Virus record (IMG/VR): IMGVR_UViG_3300031697_000459
Location: 1-40,370 of that record
Direction: 5' to 3' (one strand)
DNA length: 40,370 nt
DNA from: a virus
Under the pieces are notes generated by a model, which saw only the letters and a list, made by a program, of their open reading frames with translations, ran no database searches and had not been told where the DNA came from. Each line of letters begins with the position of its first letter. Position 1 is the stretch's first letter. This document shows, piece by piece, positions 9,834-19,002 of the stretch. Made by a program: the position numbers and the translations under genes.

Positions 9834-10367
9834 ATGGAAATCTTCAAATCAAAAGCAGCTGTATTCCGCTATCTGGAAGAGCAGGGCGATTGGGCTGTCA
9901 GCCGATCGCAGTTTTACGATCATTGTAAGGATCGTCTGCTTCGTCCTGGTAAGGATGGACAATTCACCCTTGCCGATGTGAATAAATATGCAAAGCAAAA
10001 TCTGAAAGAAGCAGCCACGGGCAGGAAGGCGTCAGACAAGCTGGATAAGATGCATGAAGAGAAGATGGGAGTCGAGCTTGATCAGGCAAAGGTCAAGCTC
10101 GAAAAGGATCAGCACGATCTGGATACTCGCAAGGGAAAGTATGTGAGCCGTGATGAGTTTGAGCTGGCCATCGTCTCCAGGGCGGTGGCCTTTATGGCTC
10201 ATCTCAATCATGCAATCCAGGCAAATACTCCTGATTGGATCGATCTTGTTAATGGGGATCAATTGCGTGCTGCAGAACTTGTGCACGCTGTGTCGGAGGT
10301 TGTTGAACAGCGTATGAGTGATTTTGCTGCTGATGCTGAATTTGATGTGATATTTGAGGCGACTTGA
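9834..10367 (+). CDS. terminase small subunit, Nu1-like
   Basis: 177 residues, ATG at 9834, ten bases after the primase, with GGGGGAAT upstream. Residues 1-50 form a winged-helix-like DNA-binding region (MEIFKSKAAVFRYLEEQGDW, SRSQFYDHCKD), followed by a long helical/coiled-coil segment (LDQAKVKLEKDQHDLDTRKG) and a helical C-terminus. This is the order seen in Nu1-type and other phage small terminase subunits, which recognise the packaging site. The large subunit lies 3 kb downstream, beyond the integron-like element, whereas these genes are normally adjacent. The family call rests on domain order and context. Confidence 0.65.
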   Translation: MEIFKSKAAVFRYLEEQGDWAVSRSQFYDHCKDRLLRPGKDGQFTLADVNKYAKQNLKEAATGRKASDKLDKMHEEKMGVELDQAKVKLEKDQHDLDTRKGKYVSRDEFELAIVSRAVAFMAHLNHAIQANTPDWIDLVNGDQLRAAELVHAVSEVVEQRMSDFAADAEFDVIFEAT

Positions 10368-10639
10368 TGAATGAAACGGCACATATAGGTGGAAATAGCT
10401 ATGAGTTGGCCCGGGAGATGCGTAAAAGGATGCCCTGCCCGATTCATAATAATTTACAAACCAGGATTGCAAAGACATCGTTTGTTGAAATGTGTCTGCG
10501 TCATCAGCAACAATCAAAAGTCCCTGCAGCTGTAAAGTTTAGCCCTGGGCGGTCGCACTGTGTTGGGTGTGCTACTGGGAAGTTGATTGAGGATGGGAAG
10601 AAATTTAATAAGCCGGATTCTGTTGTTTGGCTTGGGTAA
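10367..10639 (+). CDS. small Cys/His protein whose stop lies in an attC core
   Basis: 90 residues from ATG 10367, whose A is the last base of the previous stop (TGATG), so translation is probably coupled to the small terminase. Cysteines and histidines (CPIHNN at 24-29, CLRHQQ near 44, RSHCVGCATG near 64-73) could make a zinc site. No family recognised. Its TAA stop is bases 4-6 of the inverse core GGGTAAC of the first attC, the same arrangement as the last gene of both following cassettes. It may be a cassette gene that lost its left boundary, or the phage gene next to which cassettes inserted. Confidence 0.6.
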   Translation: MNETAHIGGNSYELAREMRKRMPCPIHNNLQTRIAKTSFVEMCLRHQQQSKVPAAVKFSPGRSHCVGCATGKLIEDGKKFNKPDSVVWLG

Positions 10640-10768
10640 CGTTTGAAAATAAGGGGAAACAAGCGGAATTAGCACGAAACGCGGCATGGAAACCAGTTGT
10701 TTCCAAAAAGGAAATAGCTGGCCTGAAAATGGACGTGCTTGTTTTCCCTCTTGATTGCGTTGTTAACT
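10634..10768 (+). repeat. integron attC site 1 (135 bp)
   Basis: Inverse core R'' GGGTAAC (10634-10640) and core R' GTTAACT (10762-10768) flank imperfect arms AAGGGGAAACAAGC (10651-10664) and GCTTGTTTTCCCTCTT (10737-10752). These pair with unpaired bases on one side, as expected of folded attC sites. A terminal hairpin is AGTTGTTTCC / GGAAATAGCT (about 10695-10719). Arms and length match attC site 2. Confidence 0.85.
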
Positions 10769-10788
10769 TTTTTATTGAGGATTTGAGA

Positions 10789-11025
10789 ATGAAAAATAAA
10801 TTAACTGATTTGAACAATCATCTTTTTGCACAATTGGAAAGGTTGGGCGATGAGGATCTGGAAGGTGATAAGTTGAAAGAAGAAATTGTACGCTCTTCTG
10901 CCATCACTAGCGTGGCCAAAGAAATTATAGCAAATGGTGCTTTGGTGCTTAACGCACAAAAGGCTATCGCTCAAGGTGATCTGTTCGGAAAACCTGTTCC
11001 AGCAATGCTTGAGGGTAGCAAATAG
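10789..11025 (+). CDS. cassette A protein 1: small helical protein paired with HNH gene
   Basis: 78 residues from ATG 10789, with GAGG at 10777-10780; the longer frame from 10627 would run through attC1. Sequence is helical and acidic (LTDLNNHLFAQLERLGDEDL, then SSAITSVAKEIIANGALVLN). I recognise this type of 75-85-residue protein as a frequent upstream neighbour of phage HNH-endonuclease genes, function unknown. Its stop TAG overlaps the GTG start of the endonuclease, so the pair is one translational unit inside cassette A. Confidence 0.7.
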   Translation: MKNKLTDLNNHLFAQLERLGDEDLEGDKLKEEIVRSSAITSVAKEIIANGALVLNAQKAIAQGDLFGKPVPAMLEGSK

Positions 11026-11627
11026 TGCCGTTTCGATACACAGATGAAATGTTGGGATTTCTTGAGATTGGATTTAAGAGCATGCCTGTGGCTGAGTTGA
11101 CAAATGCTTTTAATCAGAAATACGACACCAACAAAAAGAAAACAGCTATCCATGGTTTGCTTACCAGGAAAGGTTTTACTTGTGGTCGCAGCGGACATTT
11201 TAAAAAAGGTCAAAAATCATGGAACCATGGAAAAAAAGGTTACATGGGGCCCAACCGCACCAGTTTTAAAAAAGGCAATCTGCCACATAACCACAAACCA
11301 TTATGGAGTGAGCGGATTAGTAAGGATGGTTATGTGGAAATATCGGTTCCGGAACGAAACCCACACACGGGTTTTAAGACAAGATATAAGCACAAGCATG
11401 TCTGGCTTTGGGAACAACAGCATGGCCCTGCACCCAAAGGTTATGCTGTTGTTTTTAAAGATGGAAATAATAGAAATTTCGAGGATGATAATTTAAGGCT
11501 TATAAGCAGGGCTGAATTGCTTTATCTGAACAGAAACGGATATTCAAAGTTGCCTGTTGAGTTTAAGCCGACAATGAGAAAAGTCGCGAAGGTAGCCGTT
11601 AAAGCGGCTGAGTTGGGGAGAAGTTAA
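11025..11627 (+). CDS. cassette A protein 2: HTH plus HNH-family endonuclease
   Basis: 200 residues, GTG start at 11025 (TAGTG overlap) with GAGGG upstream. Residues 1-50 are an HTH (LGFLEIGFKSMPVAELTNAF then IHGLLTRKGFTCG). Residues 55-92 are the Gly/Lys/His-rich linker typical of the family (GHFKKGQKSWNHGKKGYMG). Residues 123-158 form the HNH core (HKHVWLWEQQHGPAPKGYAV, then KDGNNRNFEDDNL). Where many relatives have His before KDGN there is Phe (VVFKDGN), so catalysis may be altered. Such proteins often act as free-standing phage nucleases or nick near packaging genes. The TAA stop sits in the attC2 inverse core. Confidence 0.82.
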   Translation: MPFRYTDEMLGFLEIGFKSMPVAELTNAFNQKYDTNKKKTAIHGLLTRKGFTCGRSGHFKKGQKSWNHGKKGYMGPNRTSFKKGNLPHNHKPLWSERISKDGYVEISVPERNPHTGFKTRYKHKHVWLWEQQHGPAPKGYAVVFKDGNNRNFEDDNLRLISRAELLYLNRNGYSKLPVEFKPTMRKVAKVAVKAAELGRS

Positions 11628-11756
11628 CGTCTCAAGCTAAGGGGAAACAAGCGGCCAAGCACGGGGCGTGGGCCGCAGTGAGTTGTTTCCATTTTGGAAC
11701 ATACTGAATTCGGAGAACCGCCGTGCTTGTTTTCCCTCTTGAGCGTTTTGTTATGC
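11622..11756 (+). repeat. integron attC site 2 (135 bp)
   Basis: R'' AGTTAAC (11622-11628), R' GTTATGC (11750-11756). Arms CTCAAGCTAAGGGGAAACAAGC and GCTTGTTTTCCCTCTTGAG pair imperfectly; inner arms AGCACGG and CCGTGCT extend the stem; terminal hairpin AGTTGTTTCC / GGAACATACT. Same length and same arm sequences as attC1, so both belong to one attC family. Confidence 0.88.
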
Positions 11757-12160
11757 GAATTTTACATTTAACGTTGAAAAAGCAATGGTTTGACATGATC
11801 CTGTCCGGCGAAAAGAAAGCCGAATACCGGGAGGTAAAGGACTACTGGGCCAGGCGGCTACTGGTAACAAAACCATACGGTGAGATTGAGTGGGCAGTAT
11901 GGGAGGAGATGTTGTGTGATCTTCGTCAGCCGTTCAAGCGCCACACTGATGTTTCCGAGCTGTTGACCTTTTTTGATCTGCGCTTTCGAGACTACGATGC
12001 TATCAAATTTCGGAACGGTTACGCAAAAAACGCCCCCTCATTCCTGGTCGAGTGCAGGGGTGTTGCAGTAAAAAATGGCCGTCAAAAATGGGGAGCAAAG
12101 CAAGGCGAATTTTATTTTGCTTTGCGGCTCGGCAATATTTTGCATGGGGAGCAAATATGA
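11753..12160 (+). CDS. cassette B protein 1: ASCH-domain protein
   Basis: 135 residues if started at the ATG at 11753, which lies inside the core site GTTATGC; a GTG at 11723 inside attC2 is the alternative. N-terminus MRILHLTLKKQWFDMILSGE and KKAEYREVKDYWARRL match the ASCH signature (beta strand, then helix ending SGEKKxExR). The C-terminus returns to beta strands (PSFLVECRGVAVKNG, GEFYFALRLG). ASCH domains have a PUA-like fold and are thought to bind RNA or modified nucleotides. No ribosome site of its own is obvious. It overlaps the next gene (ATGA). Confidence 0.8.
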   Translation: MRILHLTLKKQWFDMILSGEKKAEYREVKDYWARRLLVTKPYGEIEWAVWEEMLCDLRQPFKRHTDVSELLTFFDLRFRDYDAIKFRNGYAKNAPSFLVECRGVAVKNGRQKWGAKQGEFYFALRLGNILHGEQI

Positions 12161-12378
12161 GCATAGCTAAAAAATTGTATGACAGGGCTTTCTCCGGAGC
12201 GAGAGATCCGCGCAGCGATGCGTATAAATCAGGAGTTTTGTCAGCCTTGATGTACAGGTCCGGAGAAGGCCCAAGCCCCAAAGAACACATGCCTTTTGTT
12301 GCTGGCACCGCTGAGTTTGATGCGTGGTGCGCCGGGCTGGATGAAGGGTACAATCGGTGGCGGATTTACGCCGCATAA
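12157..12378 (+). CDS. cassette B protein 2: small protein, unknown
   Basis: 73 residues, ATG at 12157 overlapping the ASCH stop, with GGGGAG upstream. Sequence is mixed and small-residue-rich (YDRAFSGARDPRSDAYKSGV, then FVAGTAEFDAWCAGLDEGYN), compatible with a compact helical protein. I have the impression of similar small proteins in phages and mobile gene cassettes but cannot assign a family. The TAA stop is bases 4-6 of the inverse core GCATAAC at 12373-12379. Confidence 0.7.
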   Translation: MSIAKKLYDRAFSGARDPRSDAYKSGVLSALMYRSGEGPSPKEHMPFVAGTAEFDAWCAGLDEGYNRWRIYAA

Positions 12379-12447
12379 CAGGCGATATAAAGCCACATGG
12401 CACGATAACCAATAATATTAACCGACAAAGCAGGCCAAGGAGGAAAC
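12373..12447. other. partial attC or attI candidate upstream of intI
   Basis: Starts with GCATAAC (12373-12379), the exact complement of cassette B's own core GTTATGC, so it is the left end of cassette B's attC. No matching arm or R' core follows before intI at 12448, so the site is truncated, diverged or fused to an attI. On the minus strand three GTTA-type motifs occur here (GTTAATA, GTTATCG, GTTATGC), as in an attI with integrase-binding repeats. No LexA box is visible. Confidence 0.5.
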
Positions 12448-13420: not shown

Positions 13421-15301
13421 ATGACAGCACCAGCCCCCTCAGCAGATCTCAGTCGTACAAAAGTAGTCCGTCTCAGGACATCTCCCCCCTGGTTGCCAGA
13501 AAAATTCCGCAAGCGCACCAAGCGGATCCGCGTCTCCTTCAAACCCTCCCCTGGTGAAAAAAAGGTATTCAGAAAACGTAAAAAGATCCCACCATCGGTA
13601 TGGGCCCCAAAAAATCGTACCGTAACCTATGGCCCCCTGGCCGGATCACGATGGGATAATTCATTTATGCCCCATTTTAGAGGGATAATGGATGCCTCGT
13701 TTTTCCCCTCTGTCAAAGTAATTGGCAATTGTAAAGCACCACAAACAGGATCCTCTGCCGGGGTGGAGACTATTCTAGGCTATGTTGCAGATATGCAGCC
13801 TGGGCCGGCCTTTCTTGTATATCCGGATCGTGATACATCATCGAAACGATCAACGGATTACCTGCAGCCGATGTTCACCAAGTCCCCAAGGTTGCGCCAG
13901 CTGCTCACCGGATCATCCGATGATCTGGCATCGCTCCGGATCAATCTCCAGACCATGCTCATCTATATGGGTTGGGCGGGATCTGTTACTTCACTCGGTA
14001 ATATTTCCGCTCGGTATCTGGTTGGTGATGAGATCGATAAATGGCCTGAACAGCCTTCCAAAAAAGAAGCCCGTTCGCTTGATCTCTTCTTTGAGCGGTA
14101 CAGATCATACAAATATGGTGCCAAGGCCTGGCTCTCTTCCACTCCAACCGTTCCCAGCGGTAGTATCTGGAAATTTCTCACCGAAGAGGCTCAGGTTGTT
14201 TTTGATTATAAGGTGAAGTGTCCTGATTGTGGCAAGATGGAGCTTATGGATCCCACACGTATCAAGGGGCCAGAAGGGGAACGGGATCCCAAAAAGATAC
14301 TCGAGGAGAAACTTGCTTATTATGTCTGTGCACAATGTGGATCCCAATGGGATGATCGTGGGCGTGATAAAGCAATACAGGCTGGTGTCTGGTTTGCCCG
14401 GGATGATGGCCGTGAAATAAATATTTACCTTTCAGAAAAACGTCCTGAAAAAATATGCTTTCATTCCCCTGGGTGGATCTCTCAGCTGGTGTCCCTGTCT
14501 GAAGTGTTGTCCAGGTTCTTTAAAGGCCTGAAAGACAAGAAGGACATGCACTATTACGACACTCAGATCAAGGCAGAGCCCTATGTGGATTTTGAGACCA
14601 TGCGGGAAGAGGATCAGATCCTCAAGCTGAAAGACGATAGGCCTGCAGGGTTAGTTCCTGGTATGGGAAGGGTTGCAGCACTGACTGCAGGCGTTGATAC
14701 CCAGGACGATGGTTTTTATTTCGAGATTCGGGCTTTCGGCTGGGGAATTGAGCAGGAGTCGTGGCAGGTTCGTTTTGGTTTTGTAAAAACATTTGATGCC
14801 CTGGCGAAGATTCTTTTTGAAGATGCATATCAGGATGCAGAGGGATTGTTTTATCCGGTGCACCTTGCTGTCCAGGATGCCATGGGCCATAAAACATCCG
14901 AGGTGTATGACTTTTCCAGAAAACACCCGGGGCGGCTGCAGCCCTATAAAGGTGGATCCGGACGTCGGGCAACGCCACACACTTTTTCCACAATCGATAC
15001 TTATCCTGGTACCAATAAAATTATCCCTGGTGGCGTTCGCCTGGTGACCTGCGATACTCATCACTACAAGGATGATCTGGCCTCAAAGCTGCGGATTAAT
15101 CCGGATGATCCTGGCGCCTGGCATATGCATTCTGAAGTAACCAAAGAATTTGCCCAGCATCTCTGTGCGGAATATGTGGATACCAGGATGCTGTGGCAGT
15201 GTCCGAAAAACAAGCCTAATCATTATTTTGACTGCAGCTTTATGGCCCTGGTTGCGGCTGATATTTTACAGATCAAATACTGGCAGAGAGAGGCAGCATG
15301 A
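13421..15301 (+). CDS. terminase large subunit, GpA family
   Basis: 626 residues from ATG 13421, five bases after the intI stop; the longer frame from 13361 would run inside intI. GpA features: ATPase region about residues 60-250 (SSAGVETILGYVADMQPGPA, LVGDEIDKWPEQPSKKEARS as Walker B-like segment); zinc cluster CPDCGKMEL near 266 with CAQCG near 303; nuclease start GVDTQDDGFYFEIRAFGWG near 424; C-terminal FDCSFMALVAADIL. It packages DNA into proheads, cutting at cos in lambda relatives. It looks intact. The small subunit gene ends 3 kb upstream, so the pair has been split by the integron-like element. Confidence 0.92.
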   Translation: MTAPAPSADLSRTKVVRLRTSPPWLPEKFRKRTKRIRVSFKPSPGEKKVFRKRKKIPPSVWAPKNRTVTYGPLAGSRWDNSFMPHFRGIMDASFFPSVKVIGNCKAPQTGSSAGVETILGYVADMQPGPAFLVYPDRDTSSKRSTDYLQPMFTKSPRLRQLLTGSSDDLASLRINLQTMLIYMGWAGSVTSLGNISARYLVGDEIDKWPEQPSKKEARSLDLFFERYRSYKYGAKAWLSSTPTVPSGSIWKFLTEEAQVVFDYKVKCPDCGKMELMDPTRIKGPEGERDPKKILEEKLAYYVCAQCGSQWDDRGRDKAIQAGVWFARDDGREINIYLSEKRPEKICFHSPGWISQLVSLSEVLSRFFKGLKDKKDMHYYDTQIKAEPYVDFETMREEDQILKLKDDRPAGLVPGMGRVAALTAGVDTQDDGFYFEIRAFGWGIEQESWQVRFGFVKTFDALAKILFEDAYQDAEGLFYPVHLAVQDAMGHKTSEVYDFSRKHPGRLQPYKGGSGRRATPHTFSTIDTYPGTNKIIPGGVRLVTCDTHHYKDDLASKLRINPDDPGAWHMHSEVTKEFAQHLCAEYVDTRMLWQCPKNKPNHYFDCSFMALVAADILQIKYWQREAA

Positions 15302-16309: not shown

Positions 16310-16461
16310 ATGTCCTTTGTTTGGCGATCTCTTTTGGTCGTTGGGCAGGAAGCCTTCGGGCTTGCCGTTTCTTTGGGGCGGTCTGCAAACCTGTTCAACG
16401 GCCATTTTTCGTTTTGCAGCGGAAAGTGGTGAAGATTTATTTCACCCAAAGGAGATTTACC

Positions 16462-17244
16462 ATGCACGAAGTAACAACTTTTCAGTACCAGTCTTGCCAG
16501 TTTCGTTCTATTACACTTAGTGATGAATTATGGTTTGTTGCCAAGGATGTTTGCGATATTCTTGAGCACAGCAATCCAACAGAAGCGTTAAGGAGTCTTG
16601 ACGATGAAGACCTGACCTCAGAGATCCTTAGGTCAGGTGGTCAAAATCGAGAAATGCGGCTGGTGTCAGAACCTGGTCTTTATCACCTGATTTTAAAATC
16701 CCAAACAGCAGCAGCGAAAAAATTCAAACGCTGGGTAACCCACGAAGTCCTCCCCCAAATCCGAAAAACCGGAACCTACTCCCTCACCACTCCCACCTGG
16801 TCAGGGCAACTCACTACAGATAAATTACAGGAAGTGGCATTTGCCACCCGCAATGCGGCCATGATTGTTCGTGGTATGGGATTTTCCTATAACCGTCCGC
16901 TTATGCAGCGGCTGGTCAATGATATGGTGATAGAGTCCACCGGCTATGATCTTCTGGAGCGTCTGCGATCAACGGGCCTGCTGCCGGAAGAAACCCATGC
17001 TGTTGAGTCAGACAGACAGATGGTTGCCGATTTTGTGGGAGATTGCTGCGATCTTGACGAAGAGGGAAGAACGTCCGCTTCAGAGCTTTATGGTGCCTAC
17101 TCCAGATGGCAGGCCCAGTGGAACAAATCTCGGCCCATGAGCAGGAAAAAATTCGGGGATTGCTTGAGTGGCAGCTTTGACAGGTTGAAGTCCAGTACTA
17201 TTTATTATCTGGGGATTAGCTTACGACAGGAGGTTTTGGTATGA
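16462..17244 (+). CDS. BRO-N antirepressor fused to helicase-type C-terminal domain
   Basis: 260 residues from ATG 16462 (AAAGGAG upstream). Residues 1-110 are a BRO-N domain: LWFVAKDVCDILEHSNPTEA, VSEPGLYHLILKSQTAAAKK, WVTHEVLPQIRKTGTYSL. BRO-N proteins bind DNA and act as phage antirepressors. Residues 187-256 (FVGDCCDLDEEGRTSASELY, SRPMSRKKFGDCLSGSFDRL) match the C-terminus of the phage's own helicase (ARPMSSKKFGDIMSRKGFDR). The shared module suggests both proteins contact the same DNA site or partner. The gene is followed with ATGA overlap by a small acidic protein. It probably relieves repression or controls replication. Confidence 0.82.
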   Translation: MHEVTTFQYQSCQFRSITLSDELWFVAKDVCDILEHSNPTEALRSLDDEDLTSEILRSGGQNREMRLVSEPGLYHLILKSQTAAAKKFKRWVTHEVLPQIRKTGTYSLTTPTWSGQLTTDKLQEVAFATRNAAMIVRGMGFSYNRPLMQRLVNDMVIESTGYDLLERLRSTGLLPEETHAVESDRQMVADFVGDCCDLDEEGRTSASELYGAYSRWQAQWNKSRPMSRKKFGDCLSGSFDRLKSSTIYYLGISLRQEVLV

Positions 17245-17986: not shown

Positions 17987-18445
17987 TTATATAAGGTTGT
18001 ATCTTCTTTTTTGGCTTGGGGAGATAGTTTGAGCACCTGTGACTTTTTCTGTTGCTGCTCCCAAGTCTGCATCGCCAATAGTGCCGATATGTAATGCGGG
18101 ATCGTTGGTGATGATATTTTTCAGATCGTCAAATGTCATGTCATGTATCGACGAACAATCAAGATAAGAGTCATGATCCAGATACTCGTTGCTTCCGGCA
18201 TCTAGTGGTAAGTGAAGTGCTTGCAGGCTGGCATTCCAGTTAACATTTGGATTTATTTCACTGTTAATAAAAAGATAGCCAACACAAATTTTATTGTCGC
18301 TAATGGCTAGAACAACCAATCGCTTTGTTTTTGGAGGTGTGGTTGTGTCGACGTGAATTCGTAATACGGCTCCAGGTTTTATCGCCCTGACAACGAAATC
18401 TTCTCGCGCGTGTTCAGGGAATAGGCTGCCCAGAGAGGGAGACAT
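17987..18445 (-). CDS. putative toxin of a Panacea TA pair, PemK/MazF-like
   Basis: 152 residues, ATG 18445, five bases after the antitoxin gene. Residues 15-60 resemble the PemK/MazF beta barrel (VVRAIKPGAVLRIHVDTTT, KRLVVLAISDNKICVGYLFI), and SYLDCSSIHDMTFDDLKNI recalls the later strand region. MazF-type toxins are ribosome-independent mRNA endonucleases; catalytic residues cannot be fixed by eye. Panacea antitoxins pair with many toxin folds, so the neighbour supports a toxin role more strongly than the fold does. Membership in a prophage fits a maintenance or anti-phage function. Confidence 0.6.
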   Translation of the reverse strand: MSPSLGSLFPEHAREDFVVRAIKPGAVLRIHVDTTTPPKTKRLVVLAISDNKICVGYLFINSEINPNVNWNASLQALHLPLDAGSNEYLDHDSYLDCSSIHDMTFDDLKNIITNDPALHIGTIGDADLGAATEKVTGAQTISPSQKRRYNLI

Positions 18446-18450
18446 AAGTC

Positions 18451-19002
18451 TTACGCAAAAGCCATGCTGTTTACTGCATTATGCCGAATATAGGAAATCA
18501 TATCTGAATCCGCCCCAGCTTCAAGCGCCATTCTTTTGTATGACATTTTACAGTCTTTACTGGCAGTTTTCCATGCTGATCCATGTGACTTGTTAACCAG
18601 ATCCCAGAATCTAAGATGGACATTGTCTTCAATGGCTTTTTTCAAAGCTTCCAAGTCTGATTCAGACAAAACGTCCATATCTGGATCTTGTTTTGCCTCA
18701 ACCCACTTTTCTCCATATACTTTAAAAAAAGGTGTGTACTTTTCCGGGGAAATAAAAGAACTGTCTCCCTTTGTACTTTTCAGCATATCGTAGATATTGG
18801 AAGGGACTGGGCCATATTGCATTGCTACAAAATAATCGCCCGTAATCGGTCTGCCCCAAGAGACAAGATGATCTCTATCGGCAAAATATAAAATTTTAAA
18901 AACTTTGTGCAGTCCAATTTTATCTTCACCTCGTGCAAGCACTTCGCGAACGATATGAAGAACAGCACTGATTGCTTTTTCTTCGTTAAACTGGAATTTC
19001 AT
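18451..19002 (-). CDS. Panacea (DUF4065/SocA-like) antitoxin
   Basis: 183 residues, ATG 19002. Residues 1-75 match the Panacea domain: VREVLARGEDKIGLHKVFKI, LYFADRDHLVSWGRPITGDY, FVAMQYGPVPSNIYDMLKST. The C-terminal half (SESDLEALKKAIEDNVHLRF, LVNKSHGSAWKT) is also typical. Panacea proteins neutralise toxins of many folds in two-gene operons; SocA is an adaptor-like relative. Here the antitoxin is first in the operon and the toxin second. It has its own promoter (19061-19089) with a palindrome just inside, suggesting autoregulation. Confidence 0.85.
   Translation of the reverse strand: MKFQFNEEKAISAVLHIVREVLARGEDKIGLHKVFKILYFADRDHLVSWGRPITGDYFVAMQYGPVPSNIYDMLKSTKGDSSFISPEKYTPFFKVYGEKWVEAKQDPDMDVLSESDLEALKKAIEDNVHLRFWDLVNKSHGSAWKTASKDCKMSYKRMALEAGADSDMISYIRHNAVNSMAFA

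Follow-up and report, generated by a model that had tools for sequence, protein, structure and literature searches.

Integrons are usually treated as bacterial (and archaeal) devices that are occasionally picked up by phages. Recombination of the bottom strand normally ensures that cassettes enter in one orientation with respect to Pc (PMC8876359), and cassette ORFs generally lie in one orientation (PMC9668308). Integrons and CALINs have been described in phage genomes, and some phage attC sites recombine with IntI1 (Qi et al. 2023, PMC9892861). The locus described here likewise places a complete integron with attC cassettes in a tailed phage. The complete cases in the available portion of that report are pieces of host origin (Vibrio), class 1 integrons carried by P1 and a cryptic Shewanella prophage, and that portion describes neither a phage-lineage IntI in a packaging operon nor consistently antisense cassettes (PMC9892861). 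In the Spirochaetota, IntI has been reported in reverse orientation, which likewise departs from the usual divergent relation between intI and the cassette genes (PMC9668308); there it is intI that is reversed, whereas here intI, attI and attC polarity are usual and only the cassette genes are turned round. The literature searched, which included few subscription journals, held no closer precedent for phage, reversed-cassette or Desulfobulbales integrons. Phage integrons are already known; what appears to be new is the variant seen here, in which a phage-lineage integron lies in the packaging operon and its cassettes are antisense.

The window, the whole stretch of DNA analyzed, comprises the 40,370 bases of a virus record and has genes of a tailed phage (TerL of the gpA-type terminase, portal, head protein and minor tail Z); this phage is probably temperate. 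Since terS lies to the left of the array and intI, followed after 4 bp by TerL, lies to the right, the array is placed in the packaging operon (Table 1). On the minus strand the predicted order is intI, attI, cassette B, attC2, cassette A and attC1, which is the standard layout. We hold with good confidence that this is an integron of a Desulfobulbales phage, situated between terS and TerL, with the standard layout on the minus strand and with its cassette genes flipped, such that they run with the phage operon. It is complete and the phage's own, probably works, and occupies a slot that varies among relatives.

Table 1. Coordinates of the predicted integron and its neighbors in the window
Feature	Position	Strand	Evidence and remarks
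terS (terminase small subunit)	9834..10367	+	phrog_57, E 1.9e-05; left flank of integron slot
orf91, resident phage ORF, 91 aa	10364..10639	+	ORF call; stop codon overlaps attC1 outer core
attC1	10634..10768	- (canonical top strand)	R1 111.6 bits; array-distal; cores GGGTAAC / GTTAACT as on +
Cassette A, gene-bearing body, core to core	10763..11628		exact reverse-complement cores; own attC is attC1
Cassette A gene 1, 78 aa	10789..11025	+	phrog_2044, E 3.2e-30
Cassette A gene 2, HNH endonuclease	11025..11627	+	PF13392, E 8.7e-14; phrog_1891, E 9.8e-63
attC2	11622..11756	- (canonical top strand)	R1 96.8 bits; between cassettes B and A
Cassette B, gene-bearing body, core to core	11751..12379		GTTATGC / GCATAAC exact; own attC is attC2; attI-proximal
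Cassette B gene 1, ASCH-like, 135 aa	11753..12160	+	phrog_625, E 7.3e-24
Cassette B gene 2, 73 aa	12157..12378	+	ORF call
attI	12373..12447	-	core G/TTATGC (12373-12379, minus) and fixed half up to intI start
intI, integron integrase, 322 aa	12448..13416	+	TIGR02249, 435.8 bits (cutoff 265)
TerL (terminase large subunit, gpA type)	13421..15301	+	PF05876 / PF20454

Homologs of terS adjoin TerL in related phages, most of them 45-60% identical, and the slot between the two genes ranges from 3 bp to 3.7 kb, mostly without attC matches. Therefore, integron activity is only one source of variability in this slot. Closely similar phage contigs (L035 and L038 versus L036 and L037) provide a natural insertion pair, with either 3 bp or 577 bp between the two genes; the longer version carries two ORFs, no attC was seen in it, and an integron does not account for the difference. 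Further along the window, a C4 antisense RNA at 16330-16409 (+) (RF01695, 50.5 bits) lies directly before a Bro-N antirepressor-like ORF at 16459-17244, and the two look like a phage immunity module. A SocA/Panacea-domain antitoxin-like ORF at 18451-19002 (-) and its neighbor on the same strand at 17987-18445 form a possible toxin-antitoxin pair.

The initial annotation had reported that the first bases of each cassette match the inverse core of its own attC over seven bases, and both matches are exact. The end of attC1, GTTAACT (10762-10768), is the reverse complement of AGTTAAC (11622-11628), and the end of attC2, GTTATGC (11750-11756), is that of GCATAAC (12373-12379). There are five NNNNAAC words in the 348 bp before intI, with about 0.02 chance matches expected to the second core, and the + strand of the full 40 kb contains GCATAAC two times. 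Given also that an integrase adjoins the array, chance does not explain the matches, as had been argued. The central idea of that annotation, that the cassettes were mobilized as circles, also stands, with the core rule as the trace of that mobilization. The rule in itself is not remarkable, being generic to integron cassettes: it holds in 10 of 24 intervals between recognized sites in Desulfobulbales chromosomes, many of the others probably skipping unrecognized sites, and thus it marks cassettes in general.

The HNH gene of cassette A has its stop codon, TAA, inside the core AGTTAAC, the ASCH-like gene starts within GTTATGC at the ATG, and the second gene of cassette B, for which searches of domain and phrog profiles gave no family match, stops within GCATAAC at the TAA. 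Some relatives of the ASCH-like gene in phrog_625 are annotated as 'ASCH domain-containing protein' in phage records, and most lie outside recognizable cassettes. A gene of this kind does lie in a cassette with matching cores (GTTATCA / TGATAAC) in an AT-rich viral contig that probably belongs to another host (L284:122-622). A contig with a TerL fragment 85% identical to that of the window (L043) has counterparts of orf91, phrog_2044 and the HNH gene, with order and slot unchanged, the similarity to orf91 being judged by eye; that slot has no IntI and no confident attC match. The IMG/VR contig L303 has the order terS, phrog_2044, HNH, attC, three cassettes, attI, intI and TerL, such that the phrog_2044/HNH pair lies outside the array. 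The genes of cassette A may therefore have been resident as a pair and later bounded by attC sites, rather than captured from afar.

The integrase matches the V. cholerae IntIA (VchIntIA, PDB 2a3v) from end to end (E 8e-87) and belongs to the same protein family over its full length, including the IntI-specific region; by TIGR02249 and the full-length 2a3v alignment, it has both the IntI-specific insert and the catalytic residues. The two differ in setting, in that the window IntI sits in a phage operon. Related integrases are found near related TerL genes in L040 and L303 (both IMG/VR) and in the Desulfobulbales prophages L217, L218 and L225. The dN/dS of intI is about 0.07-0.09 within the group of L040, L217 and L225 and within the pair of L218 and L303, indicative of strong purifying selection on the phage IntIs related to that of the window. 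In the first group, IntI (78-84% identical) and TerL (76-78%) diverge together and appear to be co-inherited. In the pair, IntI is 83% identical despite a TerL identity of 49%, which suggests transfer of IntI between phages. Phage and chromosomal labels cluster in the IntI tree (6 changes, as compared to 23 in shuffles); the phage IntIs are not united in a single clade with good support, and the long branch that leads to the window IntI has a weakly supported position.

The attC sites and the terminase point to the host. Shared arms, GGGGAAACAAGC ... GCTTGTTTTCCCTCTT, are found in both window sites, which have a similarity of 0.74, and in each site they form a hairpin ahead of the R' core. A simple search for R''/R' with folding energy failed to separate attC sites from background and was dropped, and a first stem scan with strict scoring gave no match. 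A viral scan with the conserved arm gave 54 matches, nearly all due to chance; the one true relative is a single other phage contig with this attC family (L087). The arm pair was found at 19 loci in GTDB genomes, about a dozen of Desulfobulbales type (Desulfocapsa, Desulfobulbus and related MAGs). Loci in Mediterranea, Paenibacillus, Flagellimonas and others look like chance inverted repeats. A covariance model, R1, was built from 12 sites, both window attC sites among them, with compensatory changes at 5 pairs. Each of the 11 genomes to which it was applied, all of them selected on the results of the arm scan, gave matches. In several Desulfobulbales loci (L108, L121 and L124) the attC 3' ends read GTGTACGCCCG(A/G)CATGGGC instead of GTTRRRY, which looks like the insertion of group IIC-attC introns in attC sites. 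Among 258 Desulfobulbales genomes, 136 encode an IntI (E <= 1e-60), the closest of which has 55% identity to the window IntI, and 21 have a window-type TerL, up to 70% identical. The host therefore most likely belongs to the Desulfobulbales, which are sulfur-cycling bacteria.

The sedentary chromosomal integrons of the Desulfobulbales (Desulfocapsa sp. MC-05, L145; L243) have the same intI-attI-array layout and strand geometry as the phage integron, and the same attC family, polarity and core rule. They differ in the direction of their genes. Both cassettes of the window carry phage-type genes on the + strand, antisense to attC, and these genes therefore run toward intI and in line with terS, intI and TerL. 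The usual, if not strictly defining, integron trait of sense cassette genes expressed from Pc is absent from the window and from the related phages. When direction is called by longest ORF, 10 of 12 cassettes from six phages, which are related, so that their cassettes are only partly independent samples, are co-directional with intI, with one opposite and one tie. In the latter two (the third cassette of L218 and the second of L303), plausible genes are co-directional on reading, to give 12 of 12 by inspection. In the chromosomal intervals between R1 sites, the longest ORF is co-directional with intI in 2 cases (+) and opposite in 21 (-), so that 21 of 23 run in the canonical direction, away from intI (Fisher p = 5e-6 against the phage cassettes). 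For chromosomal cassettes obtained by the same chain method as the phage ones (6 + and 17 -), p = 6e-4. In these comparisons direction rests mostly on longest ORFs, and many arrays are incomplete.

That the locus is a relic, a piece of a host chromosomal integron that was picked up once and is decaying with immobile cassettes, is unlikely. Such a relic would have attC sites of the host family, as found here, and could well have only two cassettes and a poorly folding attC1. It would not account for an intI that is intact over its full length, for the strong purifying selection on related phage IntIs or for a gene direction unlike that of host cassettes. In addition, the window IntI is at most about 55% identical to the sampled Desulfobulbales IntIs, and therefore it is no recent copy of any of them.

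The structure of the attC sites favors a canonical top strand on minus. The initial annotation had proposed to fold each attC as a single strand. This bears out attC2, with z = -3.7 on the - strand, whereas attC1 folds weakly on its own (z = -0.8). Apart from that weak fold, the sites have the inverted repeats, the R'' and R' cores and the extrahelical bases on one arm that characterize attC. The R1 scores of Table 1, from a model trained partly on these two sites, apply to the + orientation, with 16 bits for the reverse. An RNAalifold consensus in the + orientation has extra unpaired bases on the right (3') arm, and these also occur in most of the other phage sites and of the chromosomal sites beside intI. 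Exceptions or unclear cases are L010, L246, L247, L248 and L255, and the local alignment of attC2 hides these bases. Phage L005 has the pattern T-N6-G, and the chromosomal L259 has T-N6-C. Three loci (L254, L255 and L257) were set aside as unclear. In attCaadA7 and VCR, the extrahelical bases belong to the 3' arm of the bottom strand. By this pattern, + is the bottom strand of the window sites, and the canonical top strand is minus. When the bottom strand of known attC sites is folded, such bases (T12'', G20'') are all found on a single side (PMC3053210).

The site at 12373-12379, which the initial annotation had taken for a third, closing attC, is 75 bp upstream of intI. It has no L'', L' or R' and no fold (z = +0.2), and it is better described as the junction of attI with a cassette. 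L040, L217, L225, L218 and L303 have a junction core in the corresponding position; in the first three, conservation extends from the crossover to the attI side (AAC/ATCCAACTA), and the cassette side differs. The putative attI of the window is recognized by a crossover core that adjoins intI. Phage and chromosomal attI alike (L040, L217, L225, L145 and L243) contain a palindrome-like GGACA..TGTCC, with some imperfect copies, at a distance of about 10-20 bp from the crossover; it might serve as an attI element or as a site where a repressor of intI binds.

These features bear on the plus-strand reading of the initial annotation, which may be extended to three plus-strand attC sites with sense genes, in an array that runs into intI with a truncated last attC. 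The core rule holds on that reading as well, and stop codons that overlap RYYYAAC cores, as seen here, are usual for sense cassettes. Both the polarity of the extrahelical bases and the covariance model place the canonical strand on minus, however, and there is no third attC; the site at 12373 is where attI lies in related phages and in Desulfobulbales chromosomes. We regard the plus-strand account as quite improbable.

The phage might also use IntI as its lysogeny integrase, with attI and attC as attP-like sites for entry into host arrays. The window, a stretch that is possibly incomplete, gave a single match to an IntI-like tyrosine recombinase, and host chromosomes do carry matching attC sites. 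Yet intI is located within the packaging operon with ordinary cassettes alongside, and related prophages (for example, L219-L224) reside in bacterial genomes and have no IntI in the region that was retrieved, so this role is very doubtful.

An integron that serves for cassette exchange is consistent with the arrays of the related phages. In L040, L217, L218, L225 and L303 the core adjoining intI is the complement of an attC R', and with the window phage included the resulting chains total 12 cassettes in six phages. In a permuted-core control for this chain test, a stem score of 26 was reached by 9 of 330 controls as compared to 16 of 66 observed, and single weak links were therefore not trusted. 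L217 and L218 have a cassette in common, of 362 bp and 78% identity, which starts and stops at both cores with different flanks. It is the attI-proximal (first) cassette in L217 and the fourth in L218, and its gene was found only in those two when sought in IMG/VR and the 258 Desulfobulbales genomes. This common cassette gives indirect support to IntI-dependent excision and insertion. No relative of the window phage was found with the same integron but other cassettes, and L216 (with an Rctr41k IntI) has no cassette by the core rule. Chance inverted repeats or the tandem duplication of a phage segment, the alternative named in the initial annotation, has only the similarity of attC1 to attC2 in its favor and is neither needed nor credible, given core matches far beyond chance, an adjoining integrase, family-wide conservation with compensatory changes, unrelated genes in the two cassettes and the exact ends of the L217/L218 cassette.

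Other IMG/VR contigs with IntI, for which viral status is established for some and not for every one, mostly have the same gene direction (L002, L003, L005, L010 and L021), with L019 unclear or opposite. A tail protein is beside IntI in L002 and a phage-type integrase in L003 and L005. In L003, L005 and L011, a second tyrosine recombinase, of phage-integrase type, is closely 3' of intI. A prophage region of G128 (L221:10443-11603) has two attC sites of the window family with a gene between them in the phage direction; the core rule fails there, and an IS-like transposase is alongside.

In the proposed working of the phage integron, IntI would recombine the folded bottom strand of attC, here the + strand, with attI or with other attC sites. 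Cassettes would leave as circles and re-enter between the G and TT of the core, such that the first bases of a cassette would be the complement of its own inverse core. The cassette genes and intI would run with the packaging operon, rather than away from intI under Pc. The phage could thereby swap small accessory genes (HNH, ASCH-like and others) within that operon, where a cassette promoter would not be needed, and the supply would be a pool of phage cassettes with genes pointing this way. We infer that IntI is catalytically active, that cassettes are co-transcribed with the late genes, that recombination takes place during the lytic phase and that there is a selective reason for the flipped genes. 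A broader proposal, on which we are evenly divided, is that Desulfobulbales phages own integrons as a lineage trait, with their IntIs sited in the packaging region, and exchange a separate pool of antisense cassettes that would suit phage operons and not bacterial integrons, with the flipped direction as a barrier against the host pool despite common attC types.

In short, the window integron looks like a standing part of the phage genome, under selection in relatives and with genes that run in a direction suited to the phage. On confirmation, it would be a dedicated phage recombination system for swapping small accessory genes. Some of the variation between terS and TerL would be explained as well, and a common attC family would provide a route for gene trade between phage and host chromosome. 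The flipped cassettes offer a testable case for how cassette pools separate.
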